DNA of 64,000 nt, taken from NCBI GenBank assembly GCA_947498705.1, contig CANMLW010000007.1, positions 124,001 to 188,000 on the forward strand, read 5' to 3'. Both the position numbers and the translations under genes were made by a program. Of the stretch, positions 23,883 to 59,385 are shown in pieces. This DNA comes from an uncultured Aquimarina sp. GTDB taxonomy: Bacteria > Bacteroidota > Bacteroidia > Flavobacteriales > Flavobacteriaceae. Below the pieces are notes generated by a model. It had not been told where the DNA came from and made no database searches. It saw only the letters and a list, made by a program, of their open reading frames with translations. Every line of letters starts with the position of its first letter. Positions within the stretch are counted from its first letter, which is position 1.

Positions 23883-25880
<1,998 letters not shown>

Positions 25881-25900
25881 TTAACAATATATTACAACTA

Positions 25901-27853
25901 CTATTGTATTGCTTTCTCTATTATTTCTATAACACTCTTAATTTCTATTCCCAAATAATCCGCAAGTTTCAATAATGATTCTTTACCTTTTATAAAAGAC
26001 TCCGCTGTTTTTCTTGTCCAATTAACCCCATCCACAATCCCTTTTATATTATTAAAAAAACGCCTAAAACGATTCTTGAAACTTCCCTTTAATTCTTTAA
26101 CATCACTTTCACCAACCGAGTCTAACTCGTCCTGCAGCCTTTCCGCATCTTCAAAAAACTCAGTACCTTTCAAACCTTTCTTGATAAAATCAAACGCATC
26201 TTGAATATCAACAATGTTTTCATTTGTAAAATCCACTGATTGCACTTGCATTTGTTTTTGATCTTGAATTTGGTTTACATTAAGATTAATACTTACCGGT
26301 TCTTTTCTAGAAAGGAAAAATAACTTTTTGAATTTTGCTAGATCTTCTTCTAAATACTTAACCTTAAAATTAGCTAAATTCAAATCGGTTTTAAATTGTA
26401 AAATTTGAGACTGATATTTAATTTCTAAAAAATCTATCTCCTTAGTCAGCTCGTCAATAATTATCTTATCCTTTAGAGACACATTTGCATTATGTACTAA
26501 ATTCATGTATTCATTCAAGTAACTTCTAATCTCCTCAATATCCACCTCCCTTCCAATAGATGTTTCCAACTCTATCCCATCAATAGTTTTCTTTACATAA
26601 AACTCTATTTCAACCCCTTTAGTATCTTTAACATATTCATCAAAGTTTATCAAATATTTGACAAATGCATTCTTCAAAAGATCATGAATTTCAACCTTAT
26701 CTCTATACATTTTCTTTTCATTCAAGTCATATAAACTAAGTATTGACTTAGCAAGATCAATAGTTATATCCTCTTTCTTAAAAGAAGAATGAGCTATTAA
26801 AGACACCATTACACCTTTTAATTCACGAATGTTATTTTTTATACTATTTGCTAAAAGCACCACAACCTCCTCTAACATCTCAGTACCATCACGATACAAT
26901 TTATCTCTAATAATAGAAACCCTTGTCTCAAAATCTGGTTGATGCAACTCAGCAGATAACCCTAATTTAAGATGAGACAATAACCTTTGTTCAATATCTT
27001 GCATATTCACAGGTGCTTTATTACTTGTTAGAATGACCTGCTTTCCATTTTGATGCAAGTGATTAAAGATGTGGAAAAAGACATCTTGTGTACCTGCTTT
27101 TCCTGATAGTAACTGAATATCATCAACAATAAGAACATCGATAATCTGATAGAAATGAATAAAATCATTTCTATTATTCTTTTTTACAGACTCAATATAT
27201 TGTTGTGTGAATTTTTCTGCAGATATATATAGTACAGTTTTTTCTGGATAGTTATCCTTTATGCTTACTCCAATTGCATGTGCAAGGTGAGTTTTTCCTA
27301 AACCAACTCCACCAAATATTAGTAAAGGATTAAAAGATGTGCCTCCAGGCTTTTTGGCAACTGCCATTCCTGCTGAACGTGCTAGTTTGTTCGAATCTCC
27401 TTCTAAGAAATTTTCGAAATTGTAGCTGGGATTTAATTGAGACTCTATTTTTACATTTCGAATCCCCGGAATAACAAAAGGATTTTTTAATTCTGGGTTT
27501 TTACCCTTGACAGGTACATCAACCTCTTGAGAGTCAATGGCAGATTGATTCATGCTAGGAATTTTTTCTGTAAATGGTTTTTTGTTACCATAGGTGTTTT
27601 CCATTTTGATTACATACACCAACTTGGCATCCTTTCCTAACTCTTGCTTTATACAAGTCTTAAGAAGTTTTACGTAGTGCTCTTCTAACCACTCATAAAA
27701 AAACTTGCTTGGAACCTGAATACTTAAGACACCACTCTCAGTAAGCCTTACAGCTCTAATAGGCTCAAACCAAGTCTTATAAGCCTGAGGCGTAATATTA
27801 TCTTCTATTAAGGACAAACAATTTTTCCAAACTAAATCCGCTGTTAAATTCAT
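25901..27853 (-). CDS. DnaA-like AAA+ paralogue with domain IV replaced by a helical tail
   Basis: A 650-residue protein. Residues 1-370 align without gaps to the DnaA encoded at 34177 (323 of 370 identical by hand count): domain I, linker, and the AAA+ domain with Walker A GGVGLGKT (181-188) and Walker B LIVDDI (241-246). The box VII arginine finger is His294 (SHLKLG instead of SRFKWG), while the sensor II Arg in NIREL is kept. After residue 370 similarity stops: the DNA-binding helix-turn-helix is absent. The remaining 280 residues contain a coiled coil (about 465-512), a Gln/Asn-rich linker (about 520-540) and a basic amphipathic end. I start at ATG 27853, matching DnaA; it is one base from the upstream stop. 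Function unknown: DnaA decoy, regulator or sensor are possibilities. Confidence 0.9.
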   Translation of the reverse strand: MNLTADLVWKNCLSLIEDNITPQAYKTWFEPIRAVRLTESGVLSIQVPSKFFYEWLEEHYVKLLKTCIKQELGKDAKLVYVIKMENTYGNKKPFTEKIPSMNQSAIDSQEVDVPVKGKNPELKNPFVIPGIRNVKIESQLNPSYNFENFLEGDSNKLARSAGMAVAKKPGGTSFNPLLIFGGVGLGKTHLAHAIGVSIKDNYPEKTVLYISAEKFTQQYIESVKKNNRNDFIHFYQIIDVLIVDDIQLLSGKAGTQDVFFHIFNHLHQNGKQVILTSNKAPVNMQDIEQRLLSHLKLGLSAELHQPDFETRVSIIRDKLYRDGTEMLEEVVVLLANSIKNNIRELKGVMVSLIAHSSFKKEDITIDLAKSILSLYDLNEKKMYRDKVEIHDLLKNAFVKYLINFDEYVKDTKGVEIEFYVKKTIDGIELETSIGREVDIEEIRSYLNEYMNLVHNANVSLKDKIIIDELTKEIDFLEIKYQSQILQFKTDLNLANFKVKYLEEDLAKFKKLFFLSRKEPVSINLNVNQIQDQKQMQVQSVDFTNENIVDIQDAFDFIKKGLKGTEFFEDAERLQDELDSVGESDVKELKGSFKNRFRRFFNNIKGIVDGVNWTRKTAESFIKGKESLLKLADYLGIEIKSVIEIIEKAIQ

Positions 27854-27854
27854 A

Positions 27855-28445
27855 TCATATTCTTTCTGACTTAAACCTTTTAGGAATCTTCTCTGGTTCA
27901 TATCCTTTCATTTTACCTAACAGACCTCTAATAGTAGTATCAACCAAAAGCAATTCATAATTTTCCATTTTTAAAAACCCTTTATGAACCATTTTTTTTA
28001 AAAGAGTCAATAATTCATCATAAAAACCATTTGTGTTCAAAATACCAACAGGCTTTTGATGTAGCCCCAATTGTGACCACGTAACAACCTCAAACAATTC
28101 TTCTAATGTCCCGAATCCTCCTGGTAAAACTATAAACCCATCACTAAGCGTTTGCATTTTCATCTTACGTTCATGCATGGTTTGAGTAACTATTAATTCT
28201 TGCAAACCGAGATGAACTACCTCTTTTACTTTCAAAAACTCTGGGATCACTCCTATAACTTTTCCATTATAACGCATCACTCCTTTAGCTACCTCTCCCA
28301 TAATCCCGATTTTAGCACCCCCATAAACTAGGGAAATTTGTTCTTCTGCTAGTTTTTTACCCAATACATATGCTTCAGAAACAATACTCGTATCATTTCC
28401 CATACTACTACCACAAAACACACAAATCGACTCTATCTTACTCAT
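27855..28445 (-). CDS. LOG-family (TIGR00730) nucleotide-hydrolase-like protein
   Basis: A 196-residue Rossmann-fold protein of the LOG family, whose members cleave ribose-5-phosphate from cytokinin nucleotides or other nucleoside monophosphates. The signature PGGFGTLEE is visible at about residues 108-116, preceded by the conserved MHERK motif, and FCGSSMG starts the fold. In bacteria the physiological substrate is usually unknown. It overlaps nothing, but the DnaA-like gene begins one base after its stop, and prmC ends 11 bases upstream, so it sits in a tight operon. Confidence 0.88.
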   Translation of the reverse strand: MSKIESICVFCGSSMGNDTSIVSEAYVLGKKLAEEQISLVYGGAKIGIMGEVAKGVMRYNGKVIGVIPEFLKVKEVVHLGLQELIVTQTMHERKMKMQTLSDGFIVLPGGFGTLEELFEVVTWSQLGLHQKPVGILNTNGFYDELLTLLKKMVHKGFLKMENYELLLVDTTIRGLLGKMKGYEPEKIPKRFKSERI

Positions 28446-34176: not shown

Positions 34177-35607
34177 ATGAATGTAACCGCGCAATCAGTT
34201 TGGGACAATTGTTTATCTTTTATAGAAGATAACATTACACCTCAAGCTTACAAAACTTGGTTTGAACCCATTAAAGCTGTAAAGCTTACAGAAGGTGGTG
34301 CTTTAAGTATTCAAGTCCCAAGTAAGTTTTTTTATGAGTGGTTAGAAGAACACTATGTAAAACTACTCAAGGTATCTTTGACAAGAGAATTAGGAGAGAA
34401 TGCCAAGTTGGTGTATGTAATCAAAATGGAGAACACCTATGGCAATAAAAAACCATTTACAGAAAAAATTCCTAGCGCGAATAGATCTGCTGTTAATTCT
34501 CAAGAGGTTGATGTACCTATCAAAAGCAAAAACCCTGAATTAAAAAATCCTTTTGTTATTCCTGGAATTCGAAATGTAAAAATAGAATCCCAACTAAACC
34601 CTAGTTACAACTTTGAAAACTTCTTAGAAGGAGACTCAAACAGACTTGCACGTTCGGCAGGAATGGCTGTTGCTAACAAACCGGGAGGCACATCTTTTAA
34701 CCCTTTACTAATATTTGGTGGAGTTGGCCTAGGAAAAACACATTTAGCACATGCTATTGGTGTAAACATAAAAGACAACTACCCAGAAAAAACAGTTCTA
34801 TATATATCTGCAGAAAAATTTACGCAACAATACATAGAGTCTGTAAAAAAGAATAATAGAAATGATTTTATTCATTTCTACCAAATCATCGATGTTCTTA
34901 TTGTAGATGATATCCAGTTACTATCAGGAAAAGCAGGTACTCAGGACGTCTTTTTCCATATATTCAATCATTTACATCAAAACGGAAAACAGGTTATTCT
35001 AACAAGTGACAAGGCACCTGTAGACATGCAAGATATCGAACAAAGATTATTGTCTCGTTTTAAATGGGGATTATCTGCAGAATTGCATCAACCTGATTTT
35101 GAGACAAGAGTTTCTATTATCAAAAACAAACTATACAGAGATGGTGTTGAAATGCCTGAACAAATTGTAGAGTTTCTTGCAAATAACATAAAAACTAACA
35201 TACGAGAATTAGAAGGTGCTATTATATCACTAATCGCCCACTCTTCTTTTAACAAAAAAGATATCACCATAGATCTTGCAAAAGCTATTGTTGATAATTA
35301 CGTAAAAAACACAAAGAGAGAAGTTTCTATTGATTATATTCAAAAGGTAGTAAGTGATTATTTCCAAATGGATGTAGAAACACTGCAATCCAAAACAAGA
35401 AAACGACATATTGTTCAAGCAAGACAATTAGCCATGTTTTTTGCAAAAAAACTTACCAAAGCTTCATTAGCAAGTATTGGAACCCAAATAGGAAAACGAG
35501 ATCACGCAACGGTACTTCATGCCTGCAAAACTGTAGACAATTTATCATCTACAGACAAGCAGTTTAGAAAATACGTAGAAGATTTAGGAAAAAAGCTTAC
35601 TTTATAA
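34177..35607 (+). CDS. dnaA: Chromosomal replication initiator protein DnaA
   Basis: A 476-residue complete DnaA. Domain I (1-85) carries the DnaB/DiaA-type interaction fold; a linker follows to about 135. The AAA+ domain has Walker A GGVGLGKT (181-188), Walker B LIVDDI (241-246), the box VII arginine finger R294 in LLSRFKWG, and sensor II NIRELEGA (341-348). Domain IV (about 385-476) has the basic KTRKRHIVQARQLAMF helix and the IGKRDHATVLHA signature that reads DnaA boxes. All expected catalytic residues are present, so this is the functional initiator; a second copy lacking domain IV is encoded 6.3 kb to the left. Confidence 0.98.
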   Translation: MNVTAQSVWDNCLSFIEDNITPQAYKTWFEPIKAVKLTEGGALSIQVPSKFFYEWLEEHYVKLLKVSLTRELGENAKLVYVIKMENTYGNKKPFTEKIPSANRSAVNSQEVDVPIKSKNPELKNPFVIPGIRNVKIESQLNPSYNFENFLEGDSNRLARSAGMAVANKPGGTSFNPLLIFGGVGLGKTHLAHAIGVNIKDNYPEKTVLYISAEKFTQQYIESVKKNNRNDFIHFYQIIDVLIVDDIQLLSGKAGTQDVFFHIFNHLHQNGKQVILTSDKAPVDMQDIEQRLLSRFKWGLSAELHQPDFETRVSIIKNKLYRDGVEMPEQIVEFLANNIKTNIRELEGAIISLIAHSSFNKKDITIDLAKAIVDNYVKNTKREVSIDYIQKVVSDYFQMDVETLQSKTRKRHIVQARQLAMFFAKKLTKASLASIGTQIGKRDHATVLHACKTVDNLSSTDKQFRKYVEDLGKKLTL

Positions 35608-52560: not shown

Positions 52561-54930
52561 ATGAAAAAAACAATTTTTGCTCTTCTATTTTTCACATCAC
52601 TTTTATCCGCTCAGGAAAAATTTACGATTAGTGGAACAATAAACGATGCGAGTAACGGAGAAACTTTATTCGGTGCTTCGGTATACCTGCAAAGTACTAC
52701 TATTGGAGTAATTACCAACGAATATGGTTTTTACTCTCTTACAGCCCCACAAGGCGAATACTCATTAGTAGTCTCTTATATGGGGTATAATGACATCATT
52801 CAAAAAGTTACTTTAAATGGTGATCAAAAACTAAACTTTGAACTGGGTGAATCTTCTGAACAACTAGACGAAGTGGTAATTACCGCAGAGGAAAGCGAAA
52901 GAGTAAGTATTAAAAAACCCGAAATGAGTGTCGCTAAACTAAAATCAGAGACCATCAAAAAAATACCTGTTGTACTAGGAGAAGTAGATGTGGTAAAATC
53001 AATTCAAACTTTACCAGGGGTAACTAATACTGGTGAAGGAAGTAGTGGTTTTAACGTAAGAGGTGGTGCTGTAGATCAAAACCTAGTATTACTAGACGAA
53101 GCTATTATTTATAATACCTCGCATTTATTAGGATTCTTTTCTGTTTTTAATGCAGATGCAATCAAAGATGTAAAGCTTTATAAAGGAGGAATTCCTGCAA
53201 AGTTTGGAGGTAGAGTTTCTTCGGTATTGGATGTACGACAAAAAGACGGAAACAACAAAAGAATTGGGCTTACAGGTGGTATCGGGGTTATATCAAGTAG
53301 ACTGGCTATAGAAGGTCCTACATTTAATAAAAATGGATCTTTTTTATTGGCTGGTAGAGGCTCATATGCTCACCTTTTCACAGCCGCATCCAAAAATCTA
53401 AAAGACACTAAGGTTAATTTTTATGACCTAAACCTAAAAACCAATTACAAGGTAAGCGAAAACAATAAACTATATCTTTCTGGATATTTTGGCAGAGACA
53501 TCTTTAATCTCAACAGTTTTAAAAGTAGTTACGGAAATGCTTCAGGTAACTTAAGATGGAATCATATTTTTAATGATAAACTATTCTCTAACTTATCCTT
53601 GATATACAGTAAATATGATTATCTATTGTCCATCAATTCTGTTCAATTTGACTGGGACTCATCAATAGAAAATTACAATGTAAAATATGATCTTAAATAT
53701 TATGTTGGTAATAATCTAAAACTTGATTTTGGAGGAAACATCATATCGTATGATTTTCATCCTGGTGAAATCACCCCTACCTCTCCAACTTCTCCTATTA
53801 ACCCAAGAAAACTTGACGAAAAAAGAGCTTTTGAAACTGGATTATACATCAATGCAGAGCATAAAATATCTGAAAACTTAACAGCACAATATGGATTACG
53901 TCATAGCTTTTTCTCTAGATTAGGAGGCCAAAAATTAACTAACTATGCTAATGATCAACCCGTAGTCTATAATGAAGAGTTAGGTATTTATGAAGAAGGA
54001 ACAGCCATAGGTGAAACCGATTATAAAAAAAGTGAGACTATAAAAAGTTATAACAATTTTGAACCTCGGTTAGGATTATCGCTTTTATTAAATGAATCTT
54101 CATCTATAAAGGCAGGGTATTCGCGAACTGCACAATACATACATTTATTATCAAACACCGTATCAGTAACCCCATTAGATGTTTGGACCCCAAGTGGCAA
54201 ATTCATAAAACCACAATTATCAGATCAATATGCACTAGGATATTTTAAGAATTTTAAAGACAATAATTATTCTTTAGAAGTAGAAGCTTACTATAAAACT
54301 ATAGAGAATAGAATTGATTATATCGACGGATCTGATTTAATAGGTCAAAACAATATCGAAACCGAAATATTAAATGGCGAATCCAGAGCTTATGGGTTAG
54401 AGTTTTTATTACGTAAAAACAAAGGAGATTTTACAGGGTGGATAGCATATACAGTATCCAAATCAGAGCAAAGAACTTTGGGAGAAAATGTTGCAGGTCC
54501 TGGAATCAATGAGGGCAAATGGTACAATACCCCACATGACAGAACACACGATCTTTCTATAACGGGTATATATAAACTTAGCGACAAATGGACACTTAGC
54601 TCTAATTTGGTATTTCAGACCGGTAGACCGGTTACCTACCCTAATGGGCAATACCAATATGAAGACTTGTCTATTGCTAGCTATTCTGAGCGAAATTCAA
54701 ACAGACTTCCCGAATATCATAGATTGGATATATCGGCGACCTATAGCCCTAATAAAAAACCAGATAGAAGATGGAAAGGAGAATGGGTTTTTAGTGTATA
54801 CAATGCTTATAACCGTAGAAATGCAGCTTCGATATCTTTTGGACAAAATCTGGAAACGGGAGCCAATGAAGCAACAAGAACTGCAATTTTTGGTATCGTA
54901 CCCTCTATAACTTATAACTTTAAATTTTAA
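52561..54930 (+). CDS. TonB-dependent receptor with CarboxypepD-reg-like domain (first copy)
   Basis: A 789-residue outer-membrane transporter. A signal peptide (1-18) is followed by a beta-sandwich of the CarboxypepD_reg-like type (about 22-105, SGTINDASNGETLFGASVYL), the plug domain (about 120-235, with GFNVRGGAVDQNLVLLDEA), and a 22-strand barrel ending in the aromatic YNFKF. Substrate unknown; such receptors import siderophores, vitamins or glycans. A DUF4249 lipoprotein gene follows by 93 bases, and a paralogous receptor/lipoprotein pair lies directly downstream. Confidence 0.93.
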   Translation: MKKTIFALLFFTSLLSAQEKFTISGTINDASNGETLFGASVYLQSTTIGVITNEYGFYSLTAPQGEYSLVVSYMGYNDIIQKVTLNGDQKLNFELGESSEQLDEVVITAEESERVSIKKPEMSVAKLKSETIKKIPVVLGEVDVVKSIQTLPGVTNTGEGSSGFNVRGGAVDQNLVLLDEAIIYNTSHLLGFFSVFNADAIKDVKLYKGGIPAKFGGRVSSVLDVRQKDGNNKRIGLTGGIGVISSRLAIEGPTFNKNGSFLLAGRGSYAHLFTAASKNLKDTKVNFYDLNLKTNYKVSENNKLYLSGYFGRDIFNLNSFKSSYGNASGNLRWNHIFNDKLFSNLSLIYSKYDYLLSINSVQFDWDSSIENYNVKYDLKYYVGNNLKLDFGGNIISYDFHPGEITPTSPTSPINPRKLDEKRAFETGLYINAEHKISENLTAQYGLRHSFFSRLGGQKLTNYANDQPVVYNEELGIYEEGTAIGETDYKKSETIKSYNNFEPRLGLSLLLNESSSIKAGYSRTAQYIHLLSNTVSVTPLDVWTPSGKFIKPQLSDQYALGYFKNFKDNNYSLEVEAYYKTIENRIDYIDGSDLIGQNNIETEILNGESRAYGLEFLLRKNKGDFTGWIAYTVSKSEQRTLGENVAGPGINEGKWYNTPHDRTHDLSITGIYKLSDKWTLSSNLVFQTGRPVTYPNGQYQYEDLSIASYSERNSNRLPEYHRLDISATYSPNKKPDRRWKGEWVFSVYNAYNRRNAASISFGQNLETGANEATRTAIFGIVPSITYNFKF

Positions 54931-55023
54931 ATCAGTAAAATAATCGATAACCATTAAAAATATATTTACTATACTGATTAATGGGATTTTATCTAAAAAA
55001 AATAAAAAATAAAAAACATACAG

Positions 55024-55854
55024 ATGAAAACATATATAAAAATATTACTAATCGCAACCATAGCTTTTACATCATGTACCGATGTGGTTGATGTAGAAGT
55101 TCCCGAAGCGGCACCAAGACTAGTAGTCGAGGCTTCATTAGATTGGGAAAAAGGAACTCAAGGAAATGAGCAAACCATAAAGCTATCAACATCTACGGCA
55201 TACTTTGACAAAAATAGTAACAAAATTGTAACCGGTGCCAGTGTAAAAGTAACTAATGACTCAAACAGTACCGAGTTTATATTTACAGATCAAAATAATG
55301 GAGAATATACAAGCACTAATTTTATTCCTATTGTTAATCAATCTTATACATTAGAGATTATTTATAATAACGAAAGGTATATTGCGCAGGAAACATTGAA
55401 ATCTGTAGCCGATATCGAAAGTGTTTCACAAGAAATTGATGATGTTGATCTTAATATTACAGTAGAATTTAATGACCCTGAAGATGAAGAAAACTTTTAT
55501 TTTGGAAAATTTAAAGAACAAAAAGAAGTATTACCAGAGTTATTTTATAATGCCGATGAATTTACTAATGGAAATTTGATGGATTTTGAATACACTATCA
55601 ATGAGGATATTGAAGATGATGGGCCGCTATTAGAAGATACAGTAAACATACAACTATTAGGCATTTCAGAAAGATATTATAACTATATCGGTTTATTAAC
55701 AGATCAAGCAGAAAGTGATGGCGGGCCTTTTAGCACTACCCCTGCTCCATTACGAGGTAATTGTAGAAATATTACCACTCCAGAAAATTACGCATTTGGT
55801 TATTTTAGACTAAGTCAAATGGTACAAACGAGTTTTACGTATTCCTCAAAATAA
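55024..55854 (+). CDS. DUF4249 lipoprotein (first copy)
   Basis: A 276-residue lipoprotein with a signal peptide and lipidated Cys18 (IAFTSC). The DUF4249 domain begins right after with DVVDVEVPEAAPRLVVEASL and contains the internal beta-sandwich and the late segment GGPFSTTPAPLRGN. DUF4249 genes regularly sit behind TonB-dependent receptors in Bacteroidota, and the product is presumably a surface or periplasmic partner of the receptor, by analogy to SusD-like proteins; this is inference. A terminator follows. Confidence 0.87.
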   Translation: MKTYIKILLIATIAFTSCTDVVDVEVPEAAPRLVVEASLDWEKGTQGNEQTIKLSTSTAYFDKNSNKIVTGASVKVTNDSNSTEFIFTDQNNGEYTSTNFIPIVNQSYTLEIIYNNERYIAQETLKSVADIESVSQEIDDVDLNITVEFNDPEDEENFYFGKFKEQKEVLPELFYNADEFTNGNLMDFEYTINEDIEDDGPLLEDTVNIQLLGISERYYNYIGLLTDQAESDGGPFSTTPAPLRGNCRNITTPENYAFGYFRLSQMVQTSFTYSSK

Positions 55855-55931
55855 CGTATCAATTACCAGAAGAATTTTACTGCAAATATTTGGTGAAATT
55901 CTGATTAAATAAACAATGTTACTTTTCCCAC

Positions 55932-55967
55932 AAAAAAGCCGATAAATTAGATTTTATCGGCTTTTTT
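55932..55967 (+). terminator. Terminator between the two receptor modules
   Basis: Perfect 15-bp inverted repeat (55932-55946 / 55953-55967) with core GCCGATAAA, 6-base loop, six-T run. It separates the first receptor/lipoprotein pair from the second. Confidence 0.92.
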
Positions 55968-56175
55968 AATAATATTTTATATGTAGAATACACCTTCAAA
56001 TGACTCTGTAAATTGTATTCATATATAACCGTTAGGTATATTTTCTATAAAGCTCATCCCGATCCAAAAGACTAATTATTTAAAAACAAGCAAAAAATAA
56101 CATAGACATGAGTCTTAAATGATTAATTTGCAAAAAAAAAGAAAACAAAAAATCCCCCACATTTTGATAAGTAAC

Positions 56176-58563
56176 ATGTTGTATCAAAAAAAGTACACTA
56201 CTATTTGGCTATTTTTCTTTTTATGCATGCATTCATCGATACAATGCCAAGAAAAATATACACTAAGCGGTGTAATATCTGAACTATCGAGTAATGAAAC
56301 TCTTATAGGCGTTACGGTAATATTTCCTGAAATCGAAAAAGGTGTTGTTACCAATGAATATGGTTTTTATTCTATAACATTACCTAAGGGGGTTTATAAG
56401 CTTCTGATAAGTTATATGGGATTTACCGATATTGAACAAGAAATTAATCTCTCTGAAGATAAAAAGATAAATTTTCAGCTTGAAGAGTCTTCAGAAAGTC
56501 TGGAAGAAGTCATTATCACACAAAAAACTGAAGGCTTAAATATTAAAACTCCGCAGATGAGTGTTAACAAGCTTACTGCCGGAACCATCAAACAAATACC
56601 AGTTGTTCTAGGCGAAGCAGATGTTATCAAATCTCTTATACTTTTGCCTGGTATAACCAATGGTGGTGAAGGGGCATCGGGTTTTAATGTAAGAGGAGGC
56701 GCAGCAGATCAAAATCTTATCTTACTTGACGAAGCTATCATCTTTAATTCATCGCATTTATTTGGCTTTTTTTCTGTTTTTAATCCAGATGCCATCAAAG
56801 ATATTAAGTTATACAAAGGAGGGATTCCTGCAAAATACGGAGGTCGTCTATCCTCGGTTCTTGATATTTACCAAAAGGAAGGTAATAGTAAAAAATTTAA
56901 ATTCACAGGTGGATTAGGAGCTGTTGCCAGTAGATTACAGGCAGAAGGCCCTATGAAAAAAGATAAAGGTGCATTTCTGGTAGCAGGAAGAGCCTCTTAT
57001 GCACATCTTTTTTTACCTCTTTTTGATAATAATAATATTGCCTATTTCTACGACCTTAATTCGAAACTGAATTATAAGATTAATAAAAACAATAGTATAT
57101 ACCTTTCTGGATATTTTGGTAGAGATATATTCAGTATTGATCAAATTTTTGAAAACACTTATGGAAATACGGTTTTAAACCTAAGGTGGAATCACTTATT
57201 TTCTGATCAGCTTTTTTCTAATTTGTCATTAATCTATTCTGATTATTTTTATGGCCTAGAACTCGATTTCGTTGGATTTGAGTGGGATTCTGGCATAAGA
57301 AATTTCAACCTCAAATATGATTTCAATCATTATTTAAGTGATGCATTTCAACTTAATTATGGTGTTAATAATATCTACTACAGATTTAACCCCGGTGAAA
57401 TAAAACCAAACCGGGAAGATTCGGGTATTATTAGAGAAAAACTGATCGATAAATATGCAAACGAGCTTGCTGCTTATATTGATATAAAACATACGATTTC
57501 AAAAAATCTAACCTTACAATATGGTATTAGAGCCAGTAATTTTATTAGGTTGGGGCAAGACGAACTAAATATTTATGAAAATGACAACCCTTTATTGTTT
57601 AATGAAGAGTTTCAGATTTATGAAGCAGCAGAGCCTATACAAGTAAAAAAATATAGCCGAAGCGAATCAATCAAAACATTTACCAATCTAGAACCTAGAG
57701 TTGCACTAGCTTACACTTTTAATGAGTATAGCTCTATAAAGGCAAGTTATAATCGAATGGCACAATACCTTCATTTGTTATCAAATACGAGTTCTCCTAC
57801 CCCATTAGATGTATGGGCCCCTAGCGGAAAGTATATAAAGCCACAATTACTTAATCAATTTGCTTTGGGGTACTATAGAAATACAAAAAGTAATATGTAT
57901 TCTATCGAGGTAGAAACTTTTTTCAAAGAAATTCAAAATAGAATTGACTATATCGACGGAGCCAATTTAATTGCTAACAATGCAATAGAACAAGATATCT
58001 TAAATGGAGAGGCAAGAGCGTATGGTGCCGAATTTTTGTTACGAAAAAATGAAGGTAAATTAAAAGGATGGTTGGCCTATACCTTATCAAAATCAGAACA
58101 GAAAACCACCGGGAGAACTCCACAAGAAACTGGCATTAATAATAATGAATGGTATCGCACACCTTACGATAAAACTCATGACATATCGTTTAACGGAACG
58201 TACAAATTAAATGACCGATGGAAATTTGGAGCCAATTTTGTATTTCAGACAGGACAACCTACCAATTATCCAACTGGACAATTTGAGTATCGTGGATTAG
58301 CCGTTCCTTTGTATGATGGTTCTAGAAATGATGAGCGACTACCCTCCTACCATAGAATTGATGTGTCTGCAACATTGATGTCGAAAAAAAATAAAAATAG
58401 AAAATGGAAAGGAGAATGGGTATTTAGTATTTATAATTTATACAATCGTAGAAACGCAGCATCAATTGCGTTTACAAGAAATTCTGACACTTATGTAAAC
58501 GAAGCCATACGAACATCTATTTTTGGATTCATACCAGCAGTAACCTATAATTTTAAGTTTTAA
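56176..58563 (+). CDS. TonB-dependent receptor with CarboxypepD-reg-like domain (second copy)
   Basis: A 795-residue outer-membrane receptor closely related to the first copy: same signal peptide plus beta-sandwich (SGVISELSSNETLIGVTVIF), plug with GFNVRGGAADQNLILLDEA, and a barrel ending YNFKF. ATG 56176 (MLYQKKYTTIWLF) gives a normal signal peptide; an earlier ATG at 56119 would add 19 basic residues and is less likely. The substrate is unknown. The DUF4249 lipoprotein gene starts three bases after its stop, tighter than in the first pair. Confidence 0.91.
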   Translation: MLYQKKYTTIWLFFFLCMHSSIQCQEKYTLSGVISELSSNETLIGVTVIFPEIEKGVVTNEYGFYSITLPKGVYKLLISYMGFTDIEQEINLSEDKKINFQLEESSESLEEVIITQKTEGLNIKTPQMSVNKLTAGTIKQIPVVLGEADVIKSLILLPGITNGGEGASGFNVRGGAADQNLILLDEAIIFNSSHLFGFFSVFNPDAIKDIKLYKGGIPAKYGGRLSSVLDIYQKEGNSKKFKFTGGLGAVASRLQAEGPMKKDKGAFLVAGRASYAHLFLPLFDNNNIAYFYDLNSKLNYKINKNNSIYLSGYFGRDIFSIDQIFENTYGNTVLNLRWNHLFSDQLFSNLSLIYSDYFYGLELDFVGFEWDSGIRNFNLKYDFNHYLSDAFQLNYGVNNIYYRFNPGEIKPNREDSGIIREKLIDKYANELAAYIDIKHTISKNLTLQYGIRASNFIRLGQDELNIYENDNPLLFNEEFQIYEAAEPIQVKKYSRSESIKTFTNLEPRVALAYTFNEYSSIKASYNRMAQYLHLLSNTSSPTPLDVWAPSGKYIKPQLLNQFALGYYRNTKSNMYSIEVETFFKEIQNRIDYIDGANLIANNAIEQDILNGEARAYGAEFLLRKNEGKLKGWLAYTLSKSEQKTTGRTPQETGINNNEWYRTPYDKTHDISFNGTYKLNDRWKFGANFVFQTGQPTNYPTGQFEYRGLAVPLYDGSRNDERLPSYHRIDVSATLMSKKNKNRKWKGEWVFSIYNLYNRRNAASIAFTRNSDTYVNEAIRTSIFGFIPAVTYNFKF

Positions 58564-58566
58564 AAA

Positions 58567-59385
58567 ATGAAGAAGTTAACTTTTATTTTAGCCATACTCA
58601 TTACAACCATTGGTTGTGAAGATGTTATTGATGTAGAAGTTCCTAATGGCGAAGCTAAATTGGTTATAGATGCTACTTTCGAGTATTTCAGAAATGAAAC
58701 TCCTGCCACTATGGAAGGTGGTGTAAAACTTACTTTATCTGCTCCATTTTTTAATACAGATGTCCCCGCTGTTAGTGATGCTACGGTTTTCATAACCAAT
58801 ATGAACGATAATACCATTATCAACTTTATAGAATCAGAGGAACAAGGTTTTTTTATTCCGTCTGAAGAAGAGTTCTTACCAGAATTTGATACTCCTTACC
58901 AATTAACAGTAGAATATAAAGACGAAACCTATGTGGCAGATGCTACACTTATCCCTACCGTTCCTATAGATGATGTGCAACAAGGAGATGCAACACTTTT
59001 TGATGGAGATGAAACAGAAATAATCATAACATATACAGATGATGCAACAAGAGATGATTTTTATCTTTTTGATTTCGATTTCAATCTATTTATTACCAGT
59101 GAAGATAGGTTCTACCAAGGAGAAACCTTTGGGTTCTCATACTTCTATGACCAAATGGTTAGTAATCAAGAGATAACTATAAAAATTATCGGTATTGATG
59201 AGCAATATTTCGATTACGCAACCTTACTAATTGAACAAAGTGATCAGGGTGGTGGAAATCCTTTTCAGACACCCCCAGCAGTATTAAGAGGAAATATAAT
59301 TAATAAAACTAATCCTGATAACTATGCCCTTGGGTATTTTACAATTTCTGAAGCCAATCGATTTGATTTTAGTATTGAAAAATAG
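58567..59385 (+). CDS. DUF4249 lipoprotein (second copy)
   Basis: A 272-residue lipoprotein with lipidated Cys17 (ITTIGC) and the DUF4249 domain starting DVIDVEVPNGEAKLVIDATF, clearly a paralogue of the first copy (compare DVVDVEVPEAAPRLVVEASL). The late segment GGGNPFQTPPAVLRGN corresponds to the first copy's GGPFSTTPAPLRGN. It begins three bases after its receptor gene, so the two are cotranslated. Function as the receptor's partner is inferred from gene pairing. Confidence 0.87.
   Translation: MKKLTFILAILITTIGCEDVIDVEVPNGEAKLVIDATFEYFRNETPATMEGGVKLTLSAPFFNTDVPAVSDATVFITNMNDNTIINFIESEEQGFFIPSEEEFLPEFDTPYQLTVEYKDETYVADATLIPTVPIDDVQQGDATLFDGDETEIIITYTDDATRDDFYLFDFDFNLFITSEDRFYQGETFGFSYFYDQMVSNQEITIKIIGIDEQYFDYATLLIEQSDQGGGNPFQTPPAVLRGNIINKTNPDNYALGYFTISEANRFDFSIEK

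Follow-up and report, generated by a model that had tools for sequence, protein, structure and literature searches.

The bacterial initiator DnaA reads DnaA boxes through its domain IV. Among its regulators, stimulators of hydrolysis of the Hda type need an arginine finger to act, and SirA is not derived from DnaA at all. In Escherichia coli, the head-to-tail assembly of DnaA protomers is described as ATP-dependent and as requiring Arg285, with ATP bound to one protomer and Arg285 of its neighbor joining the two (PMC5742627, PMC6727663); Arg285 is the arginine finger, and the box VII arginine, Arg281, lies four residues earlier (PMC5742627). Hda is described as having an N-terminal clamp-binding motif, and SirA of Bacillus subtilis as inhibiting initiation by contact with domains I and III of DnaA (PMC5448010). 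A search of titles and the starts of abstracts in the open-access literature found no description of a DnaA in which domain IV has been replaced.

Here we analyze a gene with this arrangement in a 64,000-nucleotide stretch of DNA from an uncultured Aquimarina sp. (the window), which also carries a resident full-length dnaA. The novelty of its sequence is the joining of a DnaA paralog to a module of an apparently unnamed family.

A DnaA paralog with a foreign C-terminus

The chimeric gene lies at 25901..27853 on the reverse strand and encodes 650 amino acids, with its ATG at 27853 and its stop codon ending at 25901. A preliminary description of this DNA had recognized the reading frame as a DnaA paralog from a hand count of 323 identities in 370 residues. 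BLASTP is in line with this count, aligning aa 1-381 (26711..27853, reverse strand) without gaps to the protein of the resident dnaA, which has domains I-IV (34177..35607, forward strand), with 327/381 identities (86%, E 0). This portion corresponds to domains I-III and matches DnaA_N (PF11638, 3.7e-20) and Bac_DnaA (PF00308, 7.9e-58). The junction falls at the end of domain III, and the last 266 residues (aa 385-650, 25901..26701, reverse strand) are not domain IV: the resident DnaA matches Bac_DnaA_C (PF08299) at 6.6e-27, and the chimera has no Pfam match to that domain.

The earlier claim that domain IV had been replaced by unrelated sequence is thus borne out. A divergent domain IV is ruled out by the missing PF08299 match, by the placement of the tail in another module family, and by the other layout of its structural model, in a comparison in which the first half of the tail model is of low confidence. 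With domain IV replaced by unrelated sequence, ordinary recognition of DnaA boxes is unlikely, and the earlier expectation that this protein does not bind the origin directly stands. An assembly chimera had also been considered as an alternative. This is ruled out by the same architecture at the same site in a second, independent assembly, that of A. macrocephali.

An upstream in-frame ATG at 27901 falls within the LOG gene that precedes the chimera, and the A. macrocephali reading frame starts at MNLT without an upstream extension. Scans for promoters, terminators, and DnaA boxes gave no excess over shuffled sequences. As a whole, the chimera scores 361.8 bits against TIGR00362, above the NCBIfam cut-off of 343.9, so automatic annotation could name it an initiator. 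That a model accepts it as one despite the missing origin-binding domain is a warning for annotation.

Arginine finger and ATP site

Both paralogs, that of the window and that of A. macrocephali, retain Walker A (GGVGLGKT), Walker B (LIVDDIQ), and the sensor-2 arginine (NIRELKG). Residue 294 of the chimera (codon at 26972..26974, reverse strand), located by alignment to DnaAs, corresponds to residue 264 in B. subtilis DnaA (8btg), and in Aquifex aeolicus DnaA (2hcb) to chain position 154. We take B. subtilis Arg264 and A. aeolicus Arg230 to be the arginine fingers at these aligned positions. The chimera has histidine in this place and, with Arg290 and His294, keeps the four-residue spacing. 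The finger is histidine in both paralogs and arginine in 29/29 Aquimarina DnaAs, a set made up of the two resident proteins and 27 proteins from among the best-scoring of 64 further genomes; a 28th such locus, L020, yielded no reading frame with the pattern used and was left out.

At 19 positions, the residue of neither paralog is found in any of the 29 DnaAs, and 15 of these positions, including 294, are invariant in DnaA. Their placement is uneven: 9 are in aa 1-80, the domain I stretch (27614..27853, reverse strand), and 8 in aa 281-372, the mostly paralog-specific box VII/arginine-finger region and lid (26738..27013, reverse strand), while aa 81-160 and 161-280 hold 1 each. These two outer stretches together account for 17/19.

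Distribution and insertion site

Orthologs in other Flavobacteriaceae had been put forward as a check on the gene, and they proved very rare. A second DnaA match marks the chimera in 2/66 Aquimarina genomes; 62/66 have one DnaA match, and 2/66 have none, both of them incomplete genomes (55% and 89%). The gene does not occur as a DnaA fusion elsewhere in a 397-genome sample of the family, in which the tail was matched in 3/397 genomes; two of these lie outside Aquimarina, and in neither is the tail joined to DnaA. Two DnaA_N matches are found in the window's genome alone among 179 genomes of a family sample without A. macrocephali. The sole other DnaA fusion found is that of A. macrocephali JAMB N27, a protein of 652 aa with identical architecture, whose gene occupies the corresponding position, flanked by the LOG gene and ligA, and whose tail is 78% identical to that of the window.

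On the left of the insertion site is the gene 27855..28445 (reverse strand), presumably of the LOG family, a name given by reading, which lies 1 nt upstream of the chimera start, a spacing also found in A. macrocephali. On the right, 23 bp downstream, is a gene read as NAD-dependent DNA ligase (ligA, 23883..25877, reverse strand). These spacings suggest a putative single operon.

Among the 64 other Aquimarina genomes, the dnaA region was examined in 22, and the site is empty in 21 of these. The LOG gene and ligA are adjacent in 19/22, with 15-151 bp between the ends of their tblastn matches. In 2/22 (L072 = G022 and L083 = G007) prmC adjoins ligA and a search for the LOG gene found none, and by these two genomes the prmC-ligA interval varies within Aquimarina beyond the chimera. 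In the last (L082 = G085) the flanking genes were not found within 16 kb of dnaA, leaving the site unseen; the usual neighbors beyond a thioesterase-like gene were not found there, and the gene order seems rearranged. One of the empty sites is that of G072, which is 91.5% identical to A. macrocephali across the neighboring proteins; no remnant of the chimera was found in its 145-bp gap. The empty sites, including that of G072 with no remnant, indicate that the chimera is a clean, patchy insertion. Its history would be either that of an old gene with losses or one of exchange between species at the same site.

In a 17-genome tree, the window species and A. macrocephali are sisters (support 0.999), and in a tree with nearer genomes they share a common clade (1.0) whose inner branches have values of 0.33-0.56. 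Between these two species the tail has a pS of 0.61, at the low end of the 0.61-0.81 of eight neighbors. Between the paralogs, dN/dS (Nei-Gojobori) comes to 0.063 in the DnaA part and 0.096 in the tail, values that are rough because dS is near saturation. The chimera is under purifying selection.

Gene conversion by the resident dnaA

Site patterns were compared between both paralogs and both resident dnaA genes over aa 1-372. There are 57 sites that group the genes by species, 44 that group the paralogs, and 13 with the third pattern, which arises from homoplasy alone. Species-grouping and paralog-grouping sites are clustered (33 runs, permutation p 1.5e-4). The middle of the protein is dominated by the species grouping, with 20 such sites to 1 paralog-grouping site in aa 81-160 and 15 to 6 in aa 201-280, and the ends by the paralog grouping, with 9 to 14 in aa 1-80 and 7 to 19 in aa 281-372. 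Between the two middle blocks, aa 161-200 is mixed (6 species-grouping, 4 paralog-grouping, 6 third-pattern). In trees of these blocks, aa 81-160 (0.925) and 201-280 (0.929) place the window paralog beside the resident dnaA of the same genome, and aa 281-372 (0.997) and 1-80 (0.805) unite the two paralogs. For the A. macrocephali paralog, aa 81-160 give a group with the resident dnaA of that species and the dnaA of L031 (0.869); the tree of aa 201-280 does not resolve its position.

Taken together, the site patterns and block trees indicate that, in each lineage, sequence of the resident gene has replaced part of the middle once or more. In the window, the linker and AAA+ core (aa 81-280, 27014..27613, reverse strand) are largely converted, with the resident dnaA as donor. 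Domain I and the finger and lid region either mostly escaped conversion or were kept different by selection. GC skew is 0.000 at window positions 27000-27499, inside the converted part, and -0.470 and -0.281 in the adjacent 500-bp intervals; the coding strand of the resident dnaA is near zero there too.

The close match to the resident protein is not kept equally in both species. For the window, pN to its own DnaA is 0.045 in aa 81-160 and 0.014 in aa 161-280, and for A. macrocephali it is 0.074 and 0.073. The middle of the A. macrocephali protein has thus changed since at the protein level, and the tight match is kept in the window species alone.

Relatives and structure of the tail

On its own, the tail gave nothing above cut-off in Pfam and no NCBIfam match at E <= 1. 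Profile searches gave 12 other proteins and one that is split into two frames. Proceeding stepwise, they reached first a protein of G439, in which two membrane helices (by reading) precede the tail, and one of G261, in which leucine-rich repeats (LRRs) do. Further relatives are a protein of G554, a COR-A/COR-B protein of G487 that has only the C-terminal part of the tail, and the Polaromonas plasmid pH1NP1 protein WP_181375211.1, and later ones are in G534 and G752. G036 has a weak relative (E 7e-4), which was left out of the profile tests. Five distinct IMG/VR contigs carry the module, all matched through profiles A6 and A9, with intact proteins at L090, L091, L092, and L097. At L093:4572-5778, on the same contig as L095, the tail-module gene lies in two overlapping frames of 280 and 125 aa. 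The N-termini of the 13 relatives comprise LRRs, a COR domain, a probable membrane segment, and domains without assignment, and never DnaA.

When a profile was built from six tails, none of them from Aquimarina, the window protein matched it over profile positions 10-251 of 259 at E 1.7e-13 (47.4 bits) and the A. macrocephali protein at E 1.2e-13; the best of 2000 shuffled tails scored 10.8 bits against it. With the COR protein added to the profile, the window protein scores 42.1 bits. A profile of three tails alone (G554, Polaromonas, and G534) misses the window protein (E 1.9, with shuffles scoring higher) and reaches the A. macrocephali protein at 6e-7. By profile similarity, these searches show the tail to be a recognizable member of an unnamed C-terminal module family, which, with its members on plasmid and provirus contigs, deserves a family entry. 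The preliminary description had not recognized the architecture as a described family. This remains true of the DnaA fusion, of which none was found outside the two Aquimarina, but the tail itself is shared with proteins of a plasmid, provirus contigs, and genomes.

Other searches added little. The window's genome has the tail only once. An Aquimarina tail query gave no match at E <= 0.1 in the phage and plasmid collections, and scans of viral contigs with the earlier tail queries gave none that was confirmed. Weak matches in G692, G721, G688, G725, and G048 were discarded as chance or coiled-coil, other weak tail matches with E above 0.004 were left out, and matches of the relatives to YabA (0.0032) and DruC (0.0015) were considered coiled-coil noise. 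In PHROGs, phrog_33926 matches a probably coiled region of the chimera at 7e-4. Neither PADLOC nor PHROGs gave a known defense or phage family worth keeping for the chimera tail. With an LRR-tail protein as query, an LRR-Roc-COR protein of a Photobacterium plasmid also came up (L050:2318-5056), encoded between TniB and TniQ family genes.

The AlphaFold2 model of the tail, made from two sequences, has a mean pLDDT of 54.6. Its residues from about 160 to 269 form a confidently modeled helical bundle (about aa 541-650 of the chimera, 25904..26233, reverse strand), and before the bundle come a helix, a beta-hairpin, and a long helix with pLDDT below 50. The tail had been called helical at the outset, which fits the C-terminal bundle; the beta-hairpin and long helix preceding it, both of low confidence, leave the term only partly apt. 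In a model of a provirus relative, the elements follow in the same order, and the mean pLDDT is likewise 54.6. Foldseek against the PDB gave no match to the tail model at E <= 0.001 among the best 50 of 215 matches (E <= 10). Of two PDB sequence searches with the tail, one gave 0 matches and the other 4 weak ones (best E 0.36). For the domain at the N-terminus of the plasmid and provirus-contig proteins, a nuclease fold was considered, and was dropped with no library match and a low-confidence model.

Genomic context and phage defense

P2-like phages are described as having a hotspot for anti-phage systems between gpA and gpQ (PMC9122126). On one provirus contig (L097:1114-5650), a Pycsar pair of TIR effector and cyclase (PADLOC: PycTIR 3.6e-119, PycC 7.5e-99) is encoded about 1.5 kb away from the tail-module gene, with genes read as P2-like portal and terminase beyond. 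On another (L091), the tail-module gene is beside genes read as P2-like tail genes. The 3.8-kb contig of G261 has the tail gene followed by a GmrSD_N gene matching NsnA and PD-T4-2_A and then by a HEPN gene, and in G752 the gene next to the tail-module gene matches PDC-S15. Overall, PADLOC on the neighbors of four tail-module loci gave a match at 3/4, with none for the Polaromonas neighbor. The genes surrounding the G439 copy are ordinary by reading.

The neighbors of the chimera itself, in the window and in A. macrocephali, read as housekeeping genes and not as a defense island. Elsewhere in the window (52561-59385), the pairing of a large TonB-receptor-like gene with a lipoprotein-like one, both named by reading, occurs twice in succession. 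PADLOC gave 0 families for the chimera tail, and its weak matches to the chimera are confined to the ATPase region (best 2.9e-4). Out of eight tails, one matches a PADLOC candidate at the 1e-5 level, namely residues 359-446 of the G554 protein P0010 (L041), with PDC-M14B. A linkage to defense is moderately supported by these contexts; it is suggestive for the tail module and indirect for the chimera.

Possible functions of the chimera

Among the activities proposed in the preliminary description was joining or capping DnaA filaments. This is the best mechanical reading of the protein, and the lost finger fits a cap with one working end; the mechanism is inferred. The chimera would bind ATP and dock with the resident DnaA through domain I and its ATP-bearing AAA+ face. 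With its own finger missing, it could not complete the ATP site of the next protomer, so that the filament would be ended on one side: the chimera would offer its ATP face to the finger of a DnaA and be unable to serve the protomer that follows. The tail may supply the regulation, as a trigger or through partner binding or oligomerization. Once the tail is engaged, for example by phage infection, assembly at the origin would be capped and initiation of replication would stop. Conversion would keep supplying the docking core with resident sequence, and selection would hold the changes in domain I, the finger, and the lid. Alternatively, with its finger lost, the domain could be one that takes part in no filament.

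We tentatively prefer this reading, in which a finger-less DnaA docking part with a regulatory tail caps the filament or arrests initiation and part of which allows for a trigger other than phage, and we would put its chances somewhat below even. We hold with similar reserve the proposal that an initiator has been turned into an immune component, refreshed by conversion as a poison subunit or an integrated decoy would require, which acts by arresting initiation upon infection or as bait for phage proteins.

The main rival to the cap is an integrated decoy, in which the DnaA part would bait phage or mobile-element proteins that attack the host DnaA, the tail would be a signaling or killing output, and conversion would preserve the likeness. 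Such a likeness is what the window shows in aa 161-280, where pN to the resident DnaA is just 0.014, but in A. macrocephali it is looser (0.073). The same tail stands behind LRRs in G261, and LRRs are often sensors; a killing or signaling output is harder to read from a tail model that has no Foldseek match at E <= 0.001 among the best 50 of 215. A cryptic prophage protein, YfdR, is listed among the interactors of E. coli DnaA domain I (PMC5448010), yet domain I is one of the two stretches in which the paralogs have diverged from DnaA, and a bait has no need to lose its arginine finger. On balance we consider a decoy rather unlikely.

Next comes a lineage-specific regulator of initiation without a role in defense, which would titrate or cap DnaA in normal growth and whose tail would oligomerize or bind a partner. 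Regulators of DnaA of the SirA and Hda types are described (PMC5448010), and the housekeeping neighbors, the putative operon suggested by the 1-nt LOG and 23-bp ligA spacings, and the purifying selection are what such a gene would be expected to have. However, presence in 2/66 Aquimarina and absence from G072 are patchy for a core regulator, and the relatives of its tail are on mobile elements, which leaves this explanation doubtful as well. A duplicate that is decaying or neutral and was joined by chance to a neighboring reading frame would account for the rarity of the gene and for the changes of the window copy at F and W beside the lost finger, but is highly improbable for a gene that is intact in two species despite near-saturated synonymous divergence (tail pS 0.61) and has a dN/dS of 0.06-0.10.

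If the cap reading is true, the chimera would be a natural filament-capping DnaA, and DnaA would have been recruited into a conditional switch that couples the initiation of replication to phage defense. A role in defense, if true, would make it a new kind of immune component. In two species, an initiator gene has undergone conversion with a gene that would be its antagonist or bait, and the finger and lid region was largely spared.

Comparison with known systems

The chimera shares with DnaA its domains I-III, 86% identical to those of the resident protein, the Walker A and B motifs, and the sensor-2 arginine. It differs from DnaA (TIGR00362; PF11638, PF00308, and PF08299) in having no domain IV, a histidine in place of the finger, and a foreign tail of 266 residues. 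With the other proteins of the tail-module family it shares the C-terminal module and nothing of DnaA, as this is not found in their N-termini.

Like Hda (TIGR03420), the chimera is a DnaA-derived AAA+ protein without domain IV, and it scores 90.5 bits against TIGR03420, under the cut-off of 194.8. Unlike Hda, it has a long C-terminal module and keeps domain I, so that its N-terminus is that of DnaA where Hda has its clamp-binding motif. That Hda lacks domain I and keeps its arginine finger had already been named in the preliminary description, and both contrasts hold: the chimera has domain I, and a histidine in place of the finger. This histidine speaks against a mechanism of the Hda type, and stimulation of hydrolysis in the manner of Hda is ruled out as a mechanism by the lost finger, which fits a one-ended cap. 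In the kind of outcome that we propose, inhibition of initiation through contact with DnaA, the chimera would resemble SirA.
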